Part shown: positions 41,983-52,121 of the stretch, piece after piece
Layout: each line of letters starts with the position of its first letter
Position numbering within the stretch: position 1 is the first letter of the stretch
Translations under genes and position numbers: made by a program
Origin: Spiroplasma endosymbiont of Crioceris asparagi
GTDB lineage: Bacteria; Bacillota_I; Bacilli_A; Mycoplasmatales; Mycoplasmataceae
DNA: 64,000 nt
Assembly: GCF_964020035.1 (NCBI RefSeq)
Contig: NZ_OZ026475.1
Span: 496,001 to 560,000 of the forward strand
Reading direction: 5' to 3'
Notes under the pieces: model-generated
Seen by the model: only the letters and a program-made list of their open reading frames with translations
Told to the model about the DNA's origin: nothing
Database searches by the model: none

Positions 41983-43080
41983 TTAAATTAAATTAAATCT
42001 AAAATGTGATCACGGTTTGACAAAATTTAATAACCAAAGTTCTTCTTGTTTTAAAGAACAAATATAATTGTATTTGCCATTTTTATCAACATAACCATCT
42101 TCTAAAATTATGTGACATTCACCTTTATACTTTTCATCAGTAGAATTAATAATTACAACATCTCCACGATTAAAAGTTTTTTTAGAATTTTGCTTTTTAA
42201 TTAATTCATTTTTAAAGACTACTCTTGTCATAGTTGAACGAATAAACTTATCAGTTATATCACCTCTTCTGAAGTGATTAAATTCTAATATTTGTTTTTC
42301 AACAGGTGTAATATTTTTAGGATTAATATCAAATGTAATTTCATATTTATTAACTGCTGCGACTTTTTCCAATTCTTCTTTTGTGGCATATGCATTACCA
42401 AATAATATTGTGTCAATTTCATTAGTGTAAAACAACAATTTAGCTTGTGCTTCAACACTCATATATCTTTGCATTTCAATTGTTGGTAATTCTTTTCAAC
42501 CCACCGCAGTTGTCATAGTTCCACTATGTGAACCAATAAAAGCAGCAGTTCTTAGACGATATTTTAAATACTTTTTATTTGCTTCCATAAAGAAATCAAA
42601 TGGTAAAGCAGTATCTTCTAAGGGATAAAAATTATGGCACCCTGATAAATTATTAGTAATTGGTTGAAAGTCCATAATATTATCAATAAATGAATCGTTG
42701 TTTGACATGTTAATTTGCACATTAATATTTTCTTTATTATGAGTAAACGCTGAAACTTCTGCTGGCAAACTAGGTGAATCAAGTCTAATGCAATCTACAC
42801 CATTTTCAACTAACACACTCATGTTTGTTGAAGTTATCCCAAGTAATTTCATTGATTCATATTCCACGTCCAAAATTGTATAAAACCCAATTGATTTAGC
42901 ATATTTTAATGCTTTTAAAACTTGTTGTGCTTTAACTTTGGCATCAGGTGATGCAATAAAGTGCAAGATACTTGTAAATACAACTGAGTAACCCAAACTT
43001 TTTGCTAGTTCTAAATATTCTTTATCCTTTTCAAAATTTGATTGTTCTGGATAGATTGATATTCCAATTTTCTTTTCCAT
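41983..43080 (-). CDS. MupG/DUF871-family TIM-barrel protein (6-phospho-N-acetylmuramidase type)
   Basis: 365 residues. MEKKIGISIYPEQSNFEKDKEYLELA start, TILDVEYESM, IRLDSPSLPAEVSAF, and SGCHNFYPLEDTALPFDFF with the GCHNFYP motif are the marks of this family (formerly DUF871); a cyclophilin-like C-terminal domain follows. Staphylococcal MupG cleaves MurNAc-6-phosphate disaccharides taken up by a PTS. The host here has no cell wall, so the substrate may be another 6-phospho-disaccharide or scavenged peptidoglycan fragments. It ends WSHFRFNLI past a TGA Trp. It follows the EIIC gene by 7 nt and is last in the operon. Confidence 0.88.
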
Positions 43081-43087
43081 ATTTTCC

Positions 43088-45187
43088 TTACATTAATTCT
43101 CCAAAGAATTGTTCATCATAATCTTTTAAAATTCTATCTTTTAAACTTAACTCTTTTTCATTATCTTTTATATAAAACTTTTTATATAGTTTATTGTCTA
43201 ATAAAACAAATGGTATATAAACTAAAAACTGTGAAATTAGTATTAGTATTATTGTAACTACAGCCCCAATTGAACCATTAGATGATATAAAGGCTCCTAG
43301 TATTGGTGGTGTTGTTCAAGCAGTTATGTTAGTTGGAATTGGCATTAAATTTTCAATAATAGATATGTGAACAATTATTAATCCCATAACTGGTGCTAAT
43401 ACTAATGGGATTAAGAATGTTAAATTAAATATAACTGGTAAACAATAAATCAATGGTTCATTAATGTTAAATATTGCAAATATAAGTGATAACTTTGCCA
43501 CTAATTTAAAGTCAGTTCTTTTTGTAAAAAATATTAACGCTAAAACGAACACAAAAGTCGATCCAGCTCCGCCACATTGAATAAAGTTATTATTTAACAA
43601 ATTATTTAGTCAATGATGATGATCTTTGTTAATTGCAAATAACAATGAGTCTTGAAATAAAAATCCTAGCACTGATGAAGCATTAATTCCAAATCATGTA
43701 AGTATATTTCAAGAAGAAATTGTCAATATACTTCCTAAAAGATAATTTGATTTACATATTAAGTATATTGGCAATTCAATAATTCATGATAAAACTTCCA
43801 TTAAATTTTTTTTATTAGTCTTTGGAAAATCGTGTGGTGATATTTTATCTAAAAATGGCGTGCAAGTATAAAAAATAAATGCAATAAAAATTGAACCAAA
43901 AATAATTATTGATATTGAAACAAGATTTCTAAATGATTCTTTTAGTTCACTTGCAGCAATATTATTTAAATTAATTTTTTTAATAAATGTCATTTTGCTA
44001 ATCATATCGTTTAATTGCACTACAACAAATGAAATTAAAAAACCAGCAAATATACCTTTGTCAGATAAAATATCTCCAAATGTATATGTATTACTAATAA
44101 ATGGATTGTTTAAAATTATGTAAACTATTACACACAATATTGAATTAATTAATTGATTACAATCATAATATTTTGAAAACTTGTAACTACTAACAAACAC
44201 AATGACTAATCCCAACATACCTATGGTTGCCGACCTTATAAAATTTAATAAATTTGTTATATCTTCAATAATTACTTTGTCGTTATTGGTAAAGTAAAAA
44301 AAGTTAAAAAATGATCCTTCATCAAAGTCTAAAACAACATTAATTATTAAGTTACATAAAGACCCAAATAAAACAAATGGGAGCACCGTCAACATTGTAT
44401 CTTTAATTGTGTTAACATATTTTGATTTAATCATTTTACTATTAGATCAAAAATATGCTTTCTTAATCATTTTAAAAGAAGTAACTTTGTTTGAAGTTCC
44501 TATTGCGGCTTTTTCTAATAAAAGTTCACTTGTTTTTTCTTTTTCAAGACTAATTAATTCATTTCTTTTTAAAATTTCTTCATTAATTTTTTGATTTTTT
44601 CTTTTAAAATTAGACTTTTTAATTAAGTTTATTTTTTCTTTAAACTCTAATTTAATTTTTTTGATATTTTGTTTAGCTTCTAGTTTGGCTTGTTTAATTT
44701 TTTCAATTATTTGTTTTTTATCTGATTGCCTTATTGGGTTAAATTTATTAAATTCTTGCTTAAATTTTTTTTCTAAAAATAACTTATTGTTTTTTTGTTC
44801 TTTAATTTTAAGTCTAAGTTCTGCTAATTCATTTTGCAAATTCAAAATTACTTTTTCTTCTTTTAGAATAACATCATCTTTTTTATTTTTACTTATTTCC
44901 AAATTTACTTCAACTGTATTTTTGTATTCTTCATAAATTTTATTGATGTCTTTTCGCTCTTTTTTAGCAGCGTTTAAATCTTTTTTTAATTTAATTTTAT
45001 ATTTAATTAATTCAGCCTTTTTAAAAGATTTAAAATTCACTTCAACTTCATTTTTAGTTAACTCATTTTCTTGAATTTCATTTTTGACTAACTGAATTTT
45101 ATTTTTTAAAATTAAAATTTCGTTTTTGTATTCAGATATATCTTTACGAATTTTAAATAATTCGGGATATTTATAAAACTTTTCCAT
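43088..45187 (-). CDS. PTS EIIC (lactose/cellobiose family) fused to N-terminal coiled coil, copy 2
   Basis: 699 residues. Residues 1-246 are a Lys/Glu/Asn/Leu-rich coiled coil (for example KIRKDISEYKNEILILKNKI and IKQAKLEAKQNIKKIKLEF), with no signal or membrane helix. Codon 247 is TGA (Trp) and the frame runs on without break into a membrane EIIC domain (residues 252-699, about ten helices) with the family's NINEPLIYCLPVIFN loop, the conserved NEP Glu. EIIC proteins bind and move the sugar during phosphorylation. The family normally starts at the membrane domain with about 430 residues. In the standard code this looks like two separate genes. It lies 8 nt downstream of a paralogue of the same design. 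Substrate unknown. Confidence 0.85.
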
Positions 45188-45195
45188 TTCGCCCC

Positions 45196-47334
45196 CTATG
45201 TTAAATAACTATCAATTTTTTTGTTTAATTTTTTAAGTCGTTCTTTATCAATATTTGCTTTATAAATTAATTCTTTATCAATATTTTTATTAGAAATTTT
45301 AATTACTGGAAAATATATTAACATTTGTAATAAAACAATTATTATTGAAATAAATAAACCTAAAACACTTTTTGTAGTAATTATCGAACCAATAAATACT
45401 GGAAAATTTGAGTTTAAAACTTGTTCATCAAATGATTGAACAATATTATAATACATTGCAAAATAACCAATTCCTGCTCCAATAATTGGAGCAATTAAAA
45501 ATGAAAAAAAGAATATTGGATTTAAAATAATTGGCAAACCAAATAAGATTGGTTCATTAATATTGAAAAACACTGGAATAAATGAAATTAATGCAACAAA
45601 TTTTCATTCTTTTCTTTTCGAAAATAAAATTATTAAAATTAATAAGGCCATAATCCCATCAGAAATACCATGACTTAAAAAGCTTGGATTATAAATACTT
45701 TCAACACTAACTGAACCAAATGAATCATTTACATGTTCAATAGCTGGGTTAATAATATCTGATGATCTCACACCAATAAATCAAAAAAATTGTCAAATAA
45801 TTATAACTATAAATGTGTTAAAAATATTATTTCTTAAAACACTAAAGATTTTTTGAATAATCACTTCAATAACATCAAACATGTTATTGATAATTATTGG
45901 TTTTAATTCCCCAATTTGTATTAATCCAATTTCGCGACCAATTAAATAAACACACGAAGATATTGTTGCATAAATCAATATTAAAACTATTATTAAAATC
46001 ATTGGTTCAATTGCTTTTGTAATTGTTTTATTAATTGCAATAAATCTCATGGTTGCAAATCTATTTAGATTTCTTAATTTGTTATATAAAAAAACTACAC
46101 TCATAGAAACAATTATTGCCATAAACAAACCTTTTGTTCCAAGTAAATCAAAATCAGTTGCAAAGTTGGGAATCATAACAATAAAGCATGCAAGAGTAGT
46201 ACAAGTTGCCACTAGTTTGTTAATTTTATAATAATTTGATAATGAAATAGAAACCGTTATACATAATAAAACCGATATTATTCCATAAGTTGATTTATAT
46301 AAAACTTCACCAAATACATCCAAATTTTTAATTACATTATGAAAACCTTTACTTAAATGAAATAAGCTTAGTCATGAACCTTCCTTATCATTTAAAATAA
46401 TATTATTAAAAAATATTGCAAAGGCACCAATTAATATAAATGGAATTAAACTAAAATAACCACTTCTTAGAGAAGAAATAAACGTACTGTTTGTAAATTT
46501 ATATGTTCTAAAAATTGTATTTTCTCAAAAATTTAATGAGATTTTTTTAATATTAAAATTGGCATATTTTAAATCAATTCGTTTAGAGAAGGCTTTAATA
46601 TTTTCTTTACTTTGTTCAATAACAAATTTTTGTTCGCTTTTAATTTTATTATATTCAACTAATAATTCATATAATTTTTCTTCTTTATCATTTTTAAAAG
46701 GTTTTAATTGCAATAAATTCATTTTAAAGATTTGAAATCTAGGATATTTAATGTCACTATTATTTTTTTCAAATGTTTCAAACAAATCATTAATTTTTTC
46801 TCTGTTTAATTTTTTAAATATTCTTTTTTCTTTATTAACATTTGATTTAACTTCTTTAAATCTAGTTAATGTTTCATTGTATTGTTTATCATTTAATCTT
46901 GCTAAATGAATTTTTTTTATTTCTTCTTTTAAATCATCAATATCTTTTTTAATTTGCATTATTTTGACTTTTAAATTGTCATTTTCAAATTTTATTTGTT
47001 CAATTTTTTCGTAAAGAATAGTTAGTTTTTCAGTTTGTTTATTTTTTAAAAAAAACAATGATTGCATTTGTAAAACTTCTTTTTTGTTAATCTCTTTTTG
47101 TTTGTCTCTAAGCGAAATAGTTTTTTCTGACTTAATTAATTTTATTTCTTGCTTAGTTTCATTTTTTACAGATTTAATTGTTCATGTAACTTCTTTTTTA
47201 AAATGATAAATTTCATCTTTAATGTCTATAATTTTTTTTCGATTATTTTTAATTGCTAATTTTGTATCAAGTATTTCTTTGTTCAAAATATGAATATTTT
47301 TTTTATAATCTAAATTAAAATCTACTAATTCCAT
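45196..47334 (-). CDS. PTS EIIC (lactose/cellobiose family) fused to N-terminal coiled coil, copy 1
   Basis: 712 residues. Residues 1-269 are coiled coil (IHILNKEILDTKLAIKNNRKK; LYEKIEQIKFENDNLKVKI; MQIKKDIDDLKEEIKKIHLA), then TGA Trp at codon 270 (NFWENTIFRTYKF) and an EIIC domain from about residue 285 with roughly ten helices and FNINEPILFGLPIILNPIFF. The junction resembles that of copy 2 (FW.N....K then a first helix with PF.L), so the fusion predates the duplication. A cytosolic tail of about 30 residues ends it. The ATG overlaps the stop of the lipoprotein gene (TAATG). No EIIA or EIIB domain is present. The coiled coil could hold the transporter in an oligomer or bind a cytosolic partner; this is inference. 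Confidence 0.85.
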
Positions 47335-48158
47335 TAATTAATACCTCCATTGTTATGCTCGTTAATATATTTTTTGACTGAATCATCTACCCCAAAGACT
47401 TCTGGATGATTTTTTATTTGTTTTTTTAAATAGCTATCAAACCTTAACTTTCTAAAATATGGTTCTCCAAAAATAATTTTGTCGTTTTCATTTCATACTC
47501 TAAAAATAGGTGCTTGCAAACCCAAAATGGTTGGAAAAAAAATATTTTTCATAAATTTTAATTCCAATCTTTCATCAAGTTCTATTTTTTTGGCATCAGA
47601 TGGATTAATTTCTGTATAAAATTTATAGTTATAAACATTTTTTATTTTCAAATTATTTATTTCTTCTTTTTTAAATTTTGCTTTAACTCTTTTATATGCC
47701 TCTTTAATATTATTTAGATTATTATTTTTATTTGTTCGAATTACTAAACTATACATTAATCCTTTTTCAAAATTTAAATCAGCACCAATAACATTAAAGG
47801 TTTTAGAAACAATATCTTTGCGATCAATAGCATCATTTTCAGAATTATTATTTTCTTTAAGTAATAATTCTGAATATTTGGAATTATTTTGAAAATCAAA
47901 AATTTTTTCATCATTATTTATTTTGAAAAAATTTTTATAAAATGCATTTTCATAACTTTTAAAATCATTAATAACTAAATTAAGAATATGATCAGGATGT
48001 TCTTCAATATTTTCATCATAATATTCTTGATAATTTATTTTATTAATAGCTTTAAGTTTTTTAGTTGAAGGATTGCAAGAAACTAAAAAGATACTTGTTG
48101 AAACAATTGATAAAGTAATTGCTCCTGCTAATAGTGATCTAAAAACTGATTTTTTCAT
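47334..48158 (-). CDS. Lipoprotein of the PTS/ROK operon
   Basis: 274 residues. Type II signal peptide: MKKSVFRSLLAGAITLSIVST then IFLVSC with the lipid-modified Cys at 28, followed by NPSTKK. The mature part is Asn/Lys/Glu rich with a repeated aromatic/charged pattern and no recognised domain; it ends KYINEHNNGGIN. It follows a ROK kinase by 12 nt and overlaps the coiled-coil-EIIC start by one base, so it is translated with the transporter and may present or cut the sugar source at the cell surface. Substrate-binding lipoproteins are not normally needed by PTS, which makes its position odd. Confidence 0.85.
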
Positions 48159-48170
48159 AATTATCCCTTT

Positions 48171-49115
48171 CTATATATTATCTTTCCCAAATTCAAAAGC
48201 ACCTATTGCTCCTGCTAAATTACCTATATTAGATATTCTTAGATTAATTTTTTTAAAAAAATCTGGCAATAAATATTTTTTTAAATGTTCTTTTATTATA
48301 GTTACTAACTTGATTCCTAGTTGTGAGGGTCCACCACCAACTACAATACAAGAAAAATCAAATACGTGTGTTAATATAGCAATTTGTTTTGCAAGTGGTT
48401 CAAGACAATATTTAAATATCTCTATAGTTTCTTGATCATCTTTTTTAAACAAATCTTTTATATCAATTATTTTTATTGTTCTATTTAAAGAACAATAAAT
48501 TTTATTTAGTTCACCATGAGAAGTTTTTGCTTTTTCATTTAAAATTCTTTCAATTCCTGTAGCAGAAGAAATTGGTTCAATACACCCGCTTAATTTGCAT
48601 GAACATTCATTTGTGTTTTGAAAACCACCACCATGTCCTGGTTCACTGGCCAAAAATGCGTTATCGCCAAAAACTAATTTTTTATCAAAAATAACTGCTC
48701 CACCAATTCCGGTGCCAATTGTATACATTAACATTGAAGTTGGTTCTTTGTTTAATGATTTTGACCATTCACCATAAATCGCAGCCTTTGCATCATTTAA
48801 AACAAAAACATTATCCACATTAAAAATAGTTTTAATTTCTTTTTTTAGTGGATAATTTTCTCAACCTAAATTCACTGATAATAAAACGTTTCCAGTTTTG
48901 TTATCAACTACTCCGCATACAGCAAAACAAATATACTCTAATTTATTAATTTTTAAAAAATTATTTAGTTCATTAAACTTTTCAAAAATTCTTTTTACAA
49001 TGTTTGGCTTTTGCCCAGATTCAACAACAAATTCTTTTAAAATTTCGTTATTTTTAAAAACGCAGCACTTCGCTGTGGTAGCGCCCAAATCTACTGATAA
49101 AACATATTTTGACAT
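48171..49115 (-). CDS. ROK-family sugar kinase
   Basis: 314 residues. VLSVDLGATTAKCCVFKN phosphate loop at the N-terminus, LMYTIGTGIGGAVI ATP loop, EPGHGGGF, and the ROK zinc motif CSCKLSGCIEPISSATGIE (residues about 190-208). The class phosphorylates glucose, fructose, N-acetylmannosamine and related sugars; the zinc-binding Cys set favours glucokinase/NanK-like enzymes. A TGA Trp follows VNLG. First gene of the operon with promoter TATAAT at 49155-49160. With EIIC and MupG downstream it would phosphorylate the free sugar released from an imported phospho-disaccharide. Confidence 0.88.
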
Positions 49116-49203: not shown

Positions 49204-49971
49204 CTATTTATTTAGACGTTTTTTAATAACAAAATTATACAATATTGAAAACGAAATAAGGATAAAAACAATAATCATTAATGATAAAAAGAATCATATT
49301 ATATTTTGTCTGACATCCATGAAAAAGTATGGTGTGTTTGTAACTCTTGGTTTATTTGAGGCCACTCTTATTTCATTTCTAATTAAAATATAAATTCCAT
49401 AAATTAATGGATAAACTAAAATTTTAGGAAATTGTTTTTTTAAATATAATTTTGTTGATAAACAATGATTTTCAAAATTCATAAATAATAAAATATATAC
49501 CACTGTTGCAATGGGACCAATGGTATGTAAAATTTCACTGCAAGTTCAGTTACTAAAACTTCAATTTCCTGGATATTTGGGATCGCTATGTTCTTTAAAC
49601 ATTTCCACTGGTAATAACATAAAATTAAATATCAATGATGTTACAGAAATATAAGTTGCAACAGCCACTGAAAAATTAATATTTAATAGTTTCTTTTTGC
49701 CCTCTTTATCATGATTAAATGCAGAATAAAATAATCATCCACAAACCAGCATATTTGATTGAGTTGTAAAAAAAGAAAAGTAATGCACAACAAGAGAAGA
49801 ATAATCATATTGACTATAAAAATTCTTATCATTATCTTGTTTGAAAATAATATCTGGATTTACTAATTGATAAATAAATTGATAAAAAACCGCAACAAAA
49901 ATTAACGTTGCGATTATGAATTTATATCAAAATTTTCATTCTTTAAAAAATTGAAATTTTATTGTGAACAC
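49204..49971 (-). CDS. Multi-pass membrane protein (Pr6Pr/DUF1600-like)
   Basis: 255 residues with about six helices. I start at GTG 49971 (VFTIKFQFFKEWKFWYKF), preceded by GAGGTAAAA; four TGA Trp codons occur in the first 100 residues. The segment HYFSFFTTQSNMLVCGWLFYSAF matches the YFTxQSNxL pattern of a family of small membrane proteins common in mollicutes and actinobacteria (function unknown). A conserved His (GPIATVV context HTIG) follows. It lies 17 nt after the EIIA gene. I know no role for it. Confidence 0.7.
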
Positions 49972-49988: not shown

Positions 49989-50294
49989 TTATTTTTTAGT
50001 TTCTCATAAATTAATAATTTCATTTGCTAACAATAATATTGTTTCTGTATTTGATATTTGATCTTCAGCATGGATATATAAAACATTATACTCCACCCTT
50101 TCATTGTTTGCTTCTTTTGCAACAACATCTTGATGAAATTTTCTTGCCATGTCTAATTCTGAATGTGCATTCTTTAATATTTCATTTGCTTTTTCAATAT
50201 TGTTTTTTTTAGCCTCACCAATTGCTTCAAAAGCTAATGTACTAGCTGATTTTGAAGCAGTAATAATTCCAAATGATATTTCTTCCCAATTCAT
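49989..50294 (-). CDS. PTS EIIA component, lactose/cellobiose family
   Basis: 101 residues. All-helical EIIA of the Lac family: MNWEEISFGIITASKSASTLAFEAI start, then AHSELDMARKFHQDVV, and YIHAEDQISNTETILLLANEII, where the His in YIHAEDQ is the expected phosphorylation site (family VHAQDHLM). The last residues (WETKK) need TGA as Trp. It receives phosphate from HPr and passes it to EIIB, which is not in the window. It follows the ABC exporter by 15 nt and probably serves the coiled-coil-EIIC proteins encoded about 3-7 kb downstream, but it is in a different unit. Confidence 0.9.
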
Positions 50295-50309: not shown

Positions 50310-52121
50310 CTAGACCATTCCTAGTCTATATAGTTTTGCAAACTGACCATCCAGTTTGATTAACTCTGTAAAACTTCCTCTTTCAATAATATTTTTGTTT
50401 CTTCCTAAAACTAAAATTTCATCAACATTTTTAATTGTACTCAATCTATGAGCAATTGCAACCGTCATTCTTCCTTTTGAAAGTTCATCTAAAGATTTTT
50501 GAATTTCTTTTTCAACAACATTATCTAAAGCAGAAGTTGCTTCATCAAGAATTATTAATGAAGGATTTTTTAAAAACATTCTCGCAATAATTAATCTCTG
50601 TTTTTGTCCACCACTCAACATAAATCCGCGTTCACCCAAAATGGTGTCATAACCATCAGATAGTTTTAAAACAAACTCATGAAATGAAGCTTTTTTTGCA
50701 GCCTCAATAACTTGTTCCATTGTTCAGTCTTTAATTGAGTATGTTAAATTTTCTAAAACTGTTCCAAATAAAATTTGTGGTTCTTGGTCAACATATCCAA
50801 CATGTTGTAAGTAATGTGATAAATCAATTTCTTTTAAATCAATACCATTAACTTTTACAACACCTTTGTAAGGATCATATAGTCTTAATAACAACTTAGA
50901 AATAGTTGATTTTCCTATACCTGATTCTCCAACAAAAGCATATGATTTTCCTTTTTTAAAAGTGAAATTAAAATTTTCGATAATTGTTTTTTGACCATCA
51001 TCTTCAGGATAAACAAATGTAATATCTTCAAGTTTGATTTCTTCTATTTCATCAATTGGTTTTTTAGCTTTTGTAAAATCTAATATTGACTTAGGATCAA
51101 TGATTTGTTTTAAACGAAGACAACAATTACAAAATCTCGTTAAACTTCGAATTGTGATTGGAAGTTGTTGAATTGATCATGCCATCATCATTGAAATCAT
51201 TAAAAATGAAGTAATTAATGAAGCAATTTGTACATTTGGGTCATCTTTTCTAAAAATAACAATAAAAGCAATTGACAATGTTGGTATTGCAGTTCCAGCT
51301 AAAACTGAAATTACATTAATAAATGATCCATATCATATTGTTGTATTTACTTTTTTACCTCAATAATCATGAAGTTTATGAAAATTTTTAACTTCTTCAT
51401 TTTCATTTCCTGTAGCTTTGATTAATCTAACATTAACAATTTTATCAGTCATGATCGAATCAACATTTAATCTTGTTTCCATAGCAACAATCAAACTTCT
51501 TCGATAATAAATAAACACTAATCAAGTAATAATAAATAATACAAAAAATATTCCTGTTACAAATGCTGCTAATTCTACATCAATTAAAAATAAACTTGCG
51601 ATTAAGAAAATGTTTAAGAAAACTGTATAAACAAAGTTAACAATAAAGTTCATAAATGTTTCGGCTCCAGCATTAGAATCACCCATAATTTTTGCCATTG
51701 TTTCACCTAGACGGTTTTTTGAATAATAACTCATATCAATTTCAACTAGGTTAACAAGTGCTTGCATTCTTAATCCTACTTCAATAATTTTTTGTGATCT
51801 AAATCCAATATAATCTAAAAAAAACTCTAAAATTACGGTCATTCCATAAACCGCTAAATTAACATAAATTCATTCTTTTCAATTAAGTGCTGTTCCAAAA
51901 AATGTTTTACCACCATTTGAATTTAGGGTGTTTAAAGAGTCAACTAAACTTTTAATTGTAAACGGTGTTATGGCTAAAGTTAATACTTCTGCAAAGCAAA
52001 CAAAAACATACATGAAAAACAAAAATTTGTGATCTTTCATAATGTCTTTAACCATCATGAAACCATCTCACATTTTGCTGAATTTAAATGCTCTTACACT
52101 GTCAAATTTTTTTCTAGTCAC
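50310..52121 (-). CDS. ABC exporter, fused permease-ATPase
   Basis: 603 residues. Six transmembrane helices in the first 330 (ABC_membrane type), then an ATPase with Walker A (GESGIGKST region), LSGGQKQRLIIARMFL signature, Walker B SLIILDEATSALD and H-loop IAHRLST. Start is GTG 52121 (VTRKKFDSV) after GAGGATAAAGAA. No N-terminal C39 peptidase domain, so it is not a dedicated double-glycine peptide processor. It works as a homo- or heterodimer; no second half-transporter is adjacent. Candidate substrates are lipids, drugs or peptides; unknown. It is followed by EIIA at 15 nt. Confidence 0.9.

Follow-up and report, generated by a model that had tools for sequence, protein, structure and literature searches.

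Two adjacent genes in a 64-kb stretch of DNA from a wall-less Spiroplasma (the window, by which we mean the whole stretch analysed) each encode, as one open reading frame under NCBI code 4 (TGA read as Trp), a PTS EIIC permease preceded by a long K/E-rich helical rod. Textbook PTS permeases start directly with their membrane domain. We propose that these proteins are lactose/cellobiose (Lac/Cel)-related EIICs with a fused, fixed-length cytosolic coiled-coil arm that serves as a spacer or tether for a soluble partner or a second transporter, a reading to which we give about an even chance. The genes and their parts are as follows.

47334..45196, minus strand: P0002, a single 712-aa ORF in code 4
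46504..47334, minus strand: N-terminal helical rod of P0002, codons 1-277 (match to profile A4, 1.4e-61)
45196..46503, minus strand: EIIC membrane domain of P0002 (Pfam PTS_EIIC and alignment to the ChbC sites)
47344..47348, minus strand: GGAGG, Shine-Dalgarno-like, upstream of the P0002 start
45187..43088, minus strand: P0001, a single 699-aa ORF in code 4
44441..45187, minus strand: N-terminal helical rod of P0001, codons 1-249 (composition, AF2 helices and rod profile)
43088..44440, minus strand: EIIC membrane domain of P0001 (Pfam PTS_EIIC and alignment to the ChbC sites)
45192..45197, minus strand: AGGGGG, Shine-Dalgarno-like, upstream of the P0001 start

Code-4 translation bore out an earlier note on this DNA, which had read both genes without a break from coil into EIIC through a TGA-encoded Trp at the junction and had held the architecture to be hidden under the standard code. 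Each gene contains six in-frame TGA codons, W247 and W270 lying near the junctions, and the need for code 4, together with weak sequence conservation of the coil, may have kept this architecture out of sight. Pfam PTS_EIIC (PF02378; curated cut-off, 30.7 bits) matches residues 263-599 of P0001 (49.3 bits) and 292-616 of P0002 (62 bits) over profile positions 2-319 and 3-319, and both proteins carry INEP, as expected of the Lac/Cel-type domain that the note had recognized. Scores against the lactose/cellobiose EIIC model TIGR00410 (143.1 and 122.4 bits) stay below its curated cut-off of 236; judged by these profiles, the window EIICs are related to the lactose/cellobiose subfamily and are not filed as TIGR00410 members. 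An artefact, with the coil made apart from EIIC or the two joined by a sequencing error, is barely credible. In-frame internal ATGs, and nothing further, speak for it, but none of those in either gene, including ATG 44434 (the separate EIIC start that the note had named as a refutation), has a Shine-Dalgarno sequence upstream, whereas both distal ATGs do, and the junction is likewise open in about 15 independent genomes.

The 249 (P0001) and 277 (P0002) residues before the EIIC profile are 53-56% K/E/D/R/N/Q and 1% P+G. Rods are strongly positive in net charge, at +12 to +26 per 250 aa, and most orthologues share KYPE(I/V)F at the extreme N terminus. The coiled coil of about 250 residues announced by the earlier note thus stands as a K/E-rich helical region of that size, but the heptad signal of single sequences is weak (z = 0.5 for P0001 and 2.2 for P0002). 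Over the aligned columns of relatives, mean hydrophobicity repeats at 3.50 residues in helix 1 and 3.60 in helix 2, periodicities reached by 23 and 7 of 1000 shuffles, respectively; there is no repeat in the third segment (899 of 1000). The similarity of the two junctions (FW.N) did not survive alignment: the motifs fall in different columns, and relatives read, e.g., WASGKLSNWKF. An EIIB domain within the rods was also considered and rejected for want of a Pfam match.

Rod length is constrained far more tightly than rod sequence. Among 12 single-copy orthologues, the rod measures 279-280 aa with one gap column in the first 280, while its mean identity is 0.39 (minimum, 0.25) versus 0.65 in the EIIC core. 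Pairwise alignments open gaps about as seldom in the rod as in the core; what stands out in them is a rod length held at far lower identity than that of the core. A length that stays constant while identity drops to 25% is what marks a molecular spacer of fixed length. The window genus differs from these 12 orthologues in that rod length varies there (249, 277, 282, and 343 aa). The dN/dS of the rod is 0.13 in the close pair G011/G070, which indicates purifying selection; distant pairs are near saturation and little informative.

AF2 models, built from alignments of 8-17 sequences of a K/E-rich kind that is easily predicted helical, place helices at residues 8-77, 81-191, and 197-229 of P0001 (mean pLDDT, 73.7) and at 8-77, 81-197, and 222-262 of the G018 orthologue (mean pLDDT, 80.2). 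Most pLDDT values of helices 1 and 2 lie at 85-95, and the turn has the same position in two separately seeded models. The arm would accordingly have a first helix of about 70 residues, a second of 111-117, and a third of 33-41. Since 70 + 41 is close to 117, the helix lengths suggest a rod of about 17 nm in which the long middle helix lies antiparallel to the other two placed end to end, with EIIC joined where helices 1 and 3 would meet, helix 3 leading into the EIIC domain. A fold search with the P0001 model returned only EIIC structures as significant (3qnq; E. coli PtsG model, 6.8e-4) and gave the rod no meaningful match.

Searches covered 60 genomes of the family, 298 of the order, and 395 of the class. 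The same domain order, sought in relatives as the earlier note had suggested, is encoded in about 15 Spiroplasmataceae genomes, with full-length matches in Spiroplasma sp. TIUS-1 (two copies), which is the nearest named relative and by genome search belongs to the window's genus, and, as one copy each, in some 13-15 genomes from a sister genus. More distant rod-EIIC cases occur in G007, G019, and G006. Gene order in relatives is nearly constant (ABC–EIIA–ROK kinase–lipoprotein–rod-EIIC–EIIB–MupG), and the window genes lie among these neighbors.

41983..43080, minus strand: MupG/GH170-family 6-phosphoglycosidase (Pfam MupG_N, 6.5e-79; MupG_C, 1.2e-33)
47334..48158, minus strand: small operon lipoprotein (N-terminal signal with Cys in the translation)
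48171..49115, minus strand: ROK-family sugar kinase (Pfam ROK, 6.9e-46)
49204..49971, minus strand: multi-pass membrane protein between EIIA and ROK, absent from the relatives' operons read
49989..50294, minus strand: EIIA, lactose/cellobiose type (Pfam PTS_IIA, 1.9e-23)
50310..52121, minus strand: MsbA-like ABC half-transporter, synteny kept in relatives

The order in TIUS-1 is EIIC-EIIB-EIIC; the window reads EIIC-EIIC, with an 8-nt gap where TIUS-1 has its EIIB gene. A quick tree pairs P0001 with TIUS-1 P0003 and P0002 with TIUS-1 P0004 (99 and 99% SH-aLRT), so the duplication predates the split of the window species and TIUS-1, in agreement with the claim that the fusion is old and was kept through duplication. 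The MsbA-like gene stands upstream of the PTS operon in nearly all relatives, which suggests a functional link. Two of the sister-genus rod-EIIC orthologues, at L075 (G036) and L199 (G080), are broken, and the gene can evidently decay in some species. At L200 (G071), a rod-EIIC has neither EIIB nor MupG adjacent, and the next ORF, of 993 aa, resembles a P-type ATPase by eye.

The operon substrate is probably a GlcNAc disaccharide with a beta linkage, for example chitobiose. L. paracasei needs the MupG-family enzyme ChbE and a Lac-type PTS EIIC/EIIB/EIIA for N,N'-diacetylchitobiose use (PMC12791066). A chitin-derived disaccharide would suit the arthropod host that the genus makes probable. A muropeptide sugar may be the substrate instead, as MupG of Staphylococcus aureus cleaves MurNAc-6P-GlcNAc (PMC6262408) and MurQ is encoded elsewhere in the window genome, about 240 kb away and adjoining another EIIC. 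The genome also encodes nagA. In the pathway we envisage, the disaccharide would be imported as the 6-phosphate and split by the MupG/GH170 enzyme, and the freed sugar would be rephosphorylated by the ROK kinase.

Extensions of this kind set the Mycoplasmatales proteins apart from ordinary EIICs. Among 93 non-Mollicute control EIICs, taken from the best-matching Bacillota loci, median length is 19 aa for the N-terminal extension (maximum, 78) and 9 aa for the C-terminal one, and coils occur in none, which upholds the view that EIIC proteins normally begin at the membrane domain. In the search of 395 genomes of the class, all matches listed outside the order begin at profile position 225 or later. 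A coil-like terminal run was found in 65 of 113 Lac-type EIICs and, among the 101 other membrane ORFs that these loci contain, in 14. The count was made by a crude criterion on a sample of PTS-centred loci, and several of those 14 runs have the look of normal soluble domains. On the EIIC tree, N-terminal rods require three label changes and C-terminal tails seven, the labels, a few of them debatable, having been assigned by simple rules on length and composition. N-terminal rods of 172 aa, placed apart from the main group, occur at L078, L201, and L202, and C-terminal coils at L079-L082, L203, and L284. In other families of the order, L282/L283 have 342 aa in front of EIIC, with MupG, EIIA, and EIIB as neighbors. 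In other Mycoplasmatales (L285, L286, L299, L300), proteins of 884-1047 aa run from EIIC through a coil into one to three copies of EIIB, the EIIB matches of L286 and L300 being under the Pfam cut-off. Within Mycoplasmatales, EIIC has gained cytosolic coils on several occasions, at the N terminus, at the C terminus, and between EIIC and EIIB.

Several further EIIC forms came to light. The longest EIIC-coil-EIIB protein (L299:1265-4408, G264), a Lac-type EIIC of 1047 aa, carries after its coil three EIIB domains in tandem that are almost the same in sequence. Apparent EIICs of some 700 aa from other Bacilli (L302-L307) were rejected as coil bearers, their C-terminal domain being globular; in these proteins of families f25 and f29 of the class (with a partial one at L308), it resembles by eye an EAL domain (cyclic-di-GMP phosphodiesterase-like). 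A large Spiroplasma EIIC clade (L212, L214, L223, L239, L252, L254) carries a probably extracellular, non-coil insert of 60-200 aa between its halves. Many of its members have a K/E-rich C-terminal tail, and one lies in the window genome at about 321-323 kb (G000).

The window operon lacks EIIB, and both of its EIICs carry substitutions at the sugar site. Sites were called by profile alignment to ChbC, with the numbering of W245, H250, E334, and W382 checked; the first three we take to be substrate-site residues in the ChbC structure. At positions 245/250/334/382, P0001 reads T, N, E, W, keeping Glu334 and Trp382, and P0002 reads W, R, E, S, keeping Trp245 and Glu334. Glu334, the catalytic-site Glu in the NEP of INEP, is retained in 93/93 Bacillota controls and 81/81 relatives, and 85 of the 93 controls have His at position 250, where the window proteins have Asn (P0001) and Arg (P0002). 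EIIB-containing loci aligned at all four sites (G018, G033, G069, G073, G019, and TIUS-1 P0004) read W, H, E, W, and the remaining EIIB-containing orthologues keep His250; the residue is lost from the N-rod loci without an adjacent EIIB (window, G076, G071, G007). His250 is thus kept in 13/13 EIIB-adjacent proteins versus 0/5 without (Fisher, 1.2e-4), a figure that ignores kinship and reflects two to four independent events. TIUS-1 P0003, which has Asn despite an adjacent EIIB and whose neighbor P0004 keeps His, was excluded from this count. The joint loss of EIIB and His250 offers a clear test of phosphotransfer residues against residues that serve the fold only.

What this erosion means can be read in two further ways. 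With the operon EIIB gone and His250 lost from the sugar site, rod-bearing EIICs of the window and of at least one or two other lineages might no longer be ordinary phosphotransfer permeases and be kept for the rod, as pseudo-transporters that organize the membrane or other enzymes; P0001 keeping Trp382 and P0002 keeping Trp245, the two could even be complementary subunits of a pair. We regard this as rather doubtful. It is unlikely, too, that both window EIICs are what is left of a decaying PTS that the genome is about to lose. The missing EIIB, the eroded Trp245, His250, and Trp382, branches as long as 1.4-1.5, and the broken orthologues in G036 and G080 would all fit such decay, but 1411 codons have stayed open behind good ribosome sites despite some 65-75% amino acid divergence from TIUS-1, Glu334 persists in both copies, and the EIIA, ROK, and MupG genes are intact.

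If the rod is a spacer or tether, as we propose, it would keep its partner, soluble or another transporter, at a set distance from the side of EIIC that faces the cytosol. The likeliest ancestral partner would be the phosphotransfer protein EIIB, or its EIIA, because a comparable coil joins EIIC to EIIB in other Mycoplasmatales. Recruitment of EIIB, among the roles offered by the earlier note, gains indirect support from those fusions, although the window operon itself has no EIIB. In the window species, EIIC is duplicated, the operon has lost its EIIB, and both sugar sites are degraded while the rods are kept. That rods persist in the loci that lost EIIB (window, G076, G071, G007) implies that EIIB is not their sole reason, unless the EIIB of another operon serves. 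Other Lac-type EIIB genes of the window genome, at 320648 and 412571, lie beside other EIICs, and their products could serve the window EIICs in trans.

The same persistence of rods after the loss of EIIB and His250 lends some weight to a role independent of phosphotransfer, in which the rod would oligomerize EIIC dimers into clusters or anchor them, be it at the fibril/MreB ribbon of Spiroplasma or in some other zone of the membrane. Such an anchor would be expected to work from either terminus, as the coils do, and a strong positive charge would suit it. A rod-only profile run against the whole window genome, however, matched the P0001 and P0002 genes and no other protein, and the EIIC-coil-EIIB fusions sit better with a role in the PTS; we consider anchoring possible, although on the unlikely side. 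Already disfavored, and improbable in our estimate, is that rods are low-cost additions, cheap K/E/N-rich helices of AT-rich Mollicute genomes with little specific function. Poor sequence conservation, recurrence in Mycoplasmatales, and coil-like runs on some other membrane ORFs would fit, but neutral padding agrees poorly with a single gap column in 280 across 12 genomes, with the low dN/dS, and with the absence of rods from the controls and from many EIICs of the same genomes.

That wall-less bacteria have repeatedly added long cytosolic coils to EIIC, and that one large group holds their length constant, points to a physical organization of sugar uptake and its phosphate relay in minimal cells. 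A partial literature search found no published description of a coil-bearing EIIC or of an EIIC-coil-EIIB protein, and comparisons must be drawn with parts of known systems. The Lac-type PTS and the GH170 6-phosphoglycosidase in one cluster are shared with the chb operon of L. paracasei (ChbC, ChbA, ChbB, ChbE; PMC12791066), to which the Spiroplasma operon adds the ROK kinase, lipoprotein, and ABC genes, while the window lacks EIIB; chbD was not identified in the Spiroplasma operon. A MupG-family enzyme likewise adjoins a PTS permease in S. aureus, but MurP there combines EIIB with EIIC and is encoded beside murQ (PMC6262408), whereas the murQ of the window genome is about 240 kb away. Golgins and Ndc80 are spacer coiled coils of conserved length (PMC5082667) that, like the rod, hold their length under sequence drift; both are eukaryotic and unrelated, and the analogy is functional only. 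The EIIC of ChbC, specific for N,N'-diacetylchitobiose (PDB 3qnq), aligns with the window domains end to end by profile (1.6e-68), sharing Glu334 of NEP, but ChbC begins at the membrane domain, whereas the window proteins place a rod of 249 or 277 aa in front and lack His250. The EIIC-coil-EIIB proteins (L285, L286, L299, L300) also bear a long K/E-rich coil on a Lac-type EIIC; theirs is C-terminal and runs into EIIB, whereas the rod of the window proteins is N-terminal.
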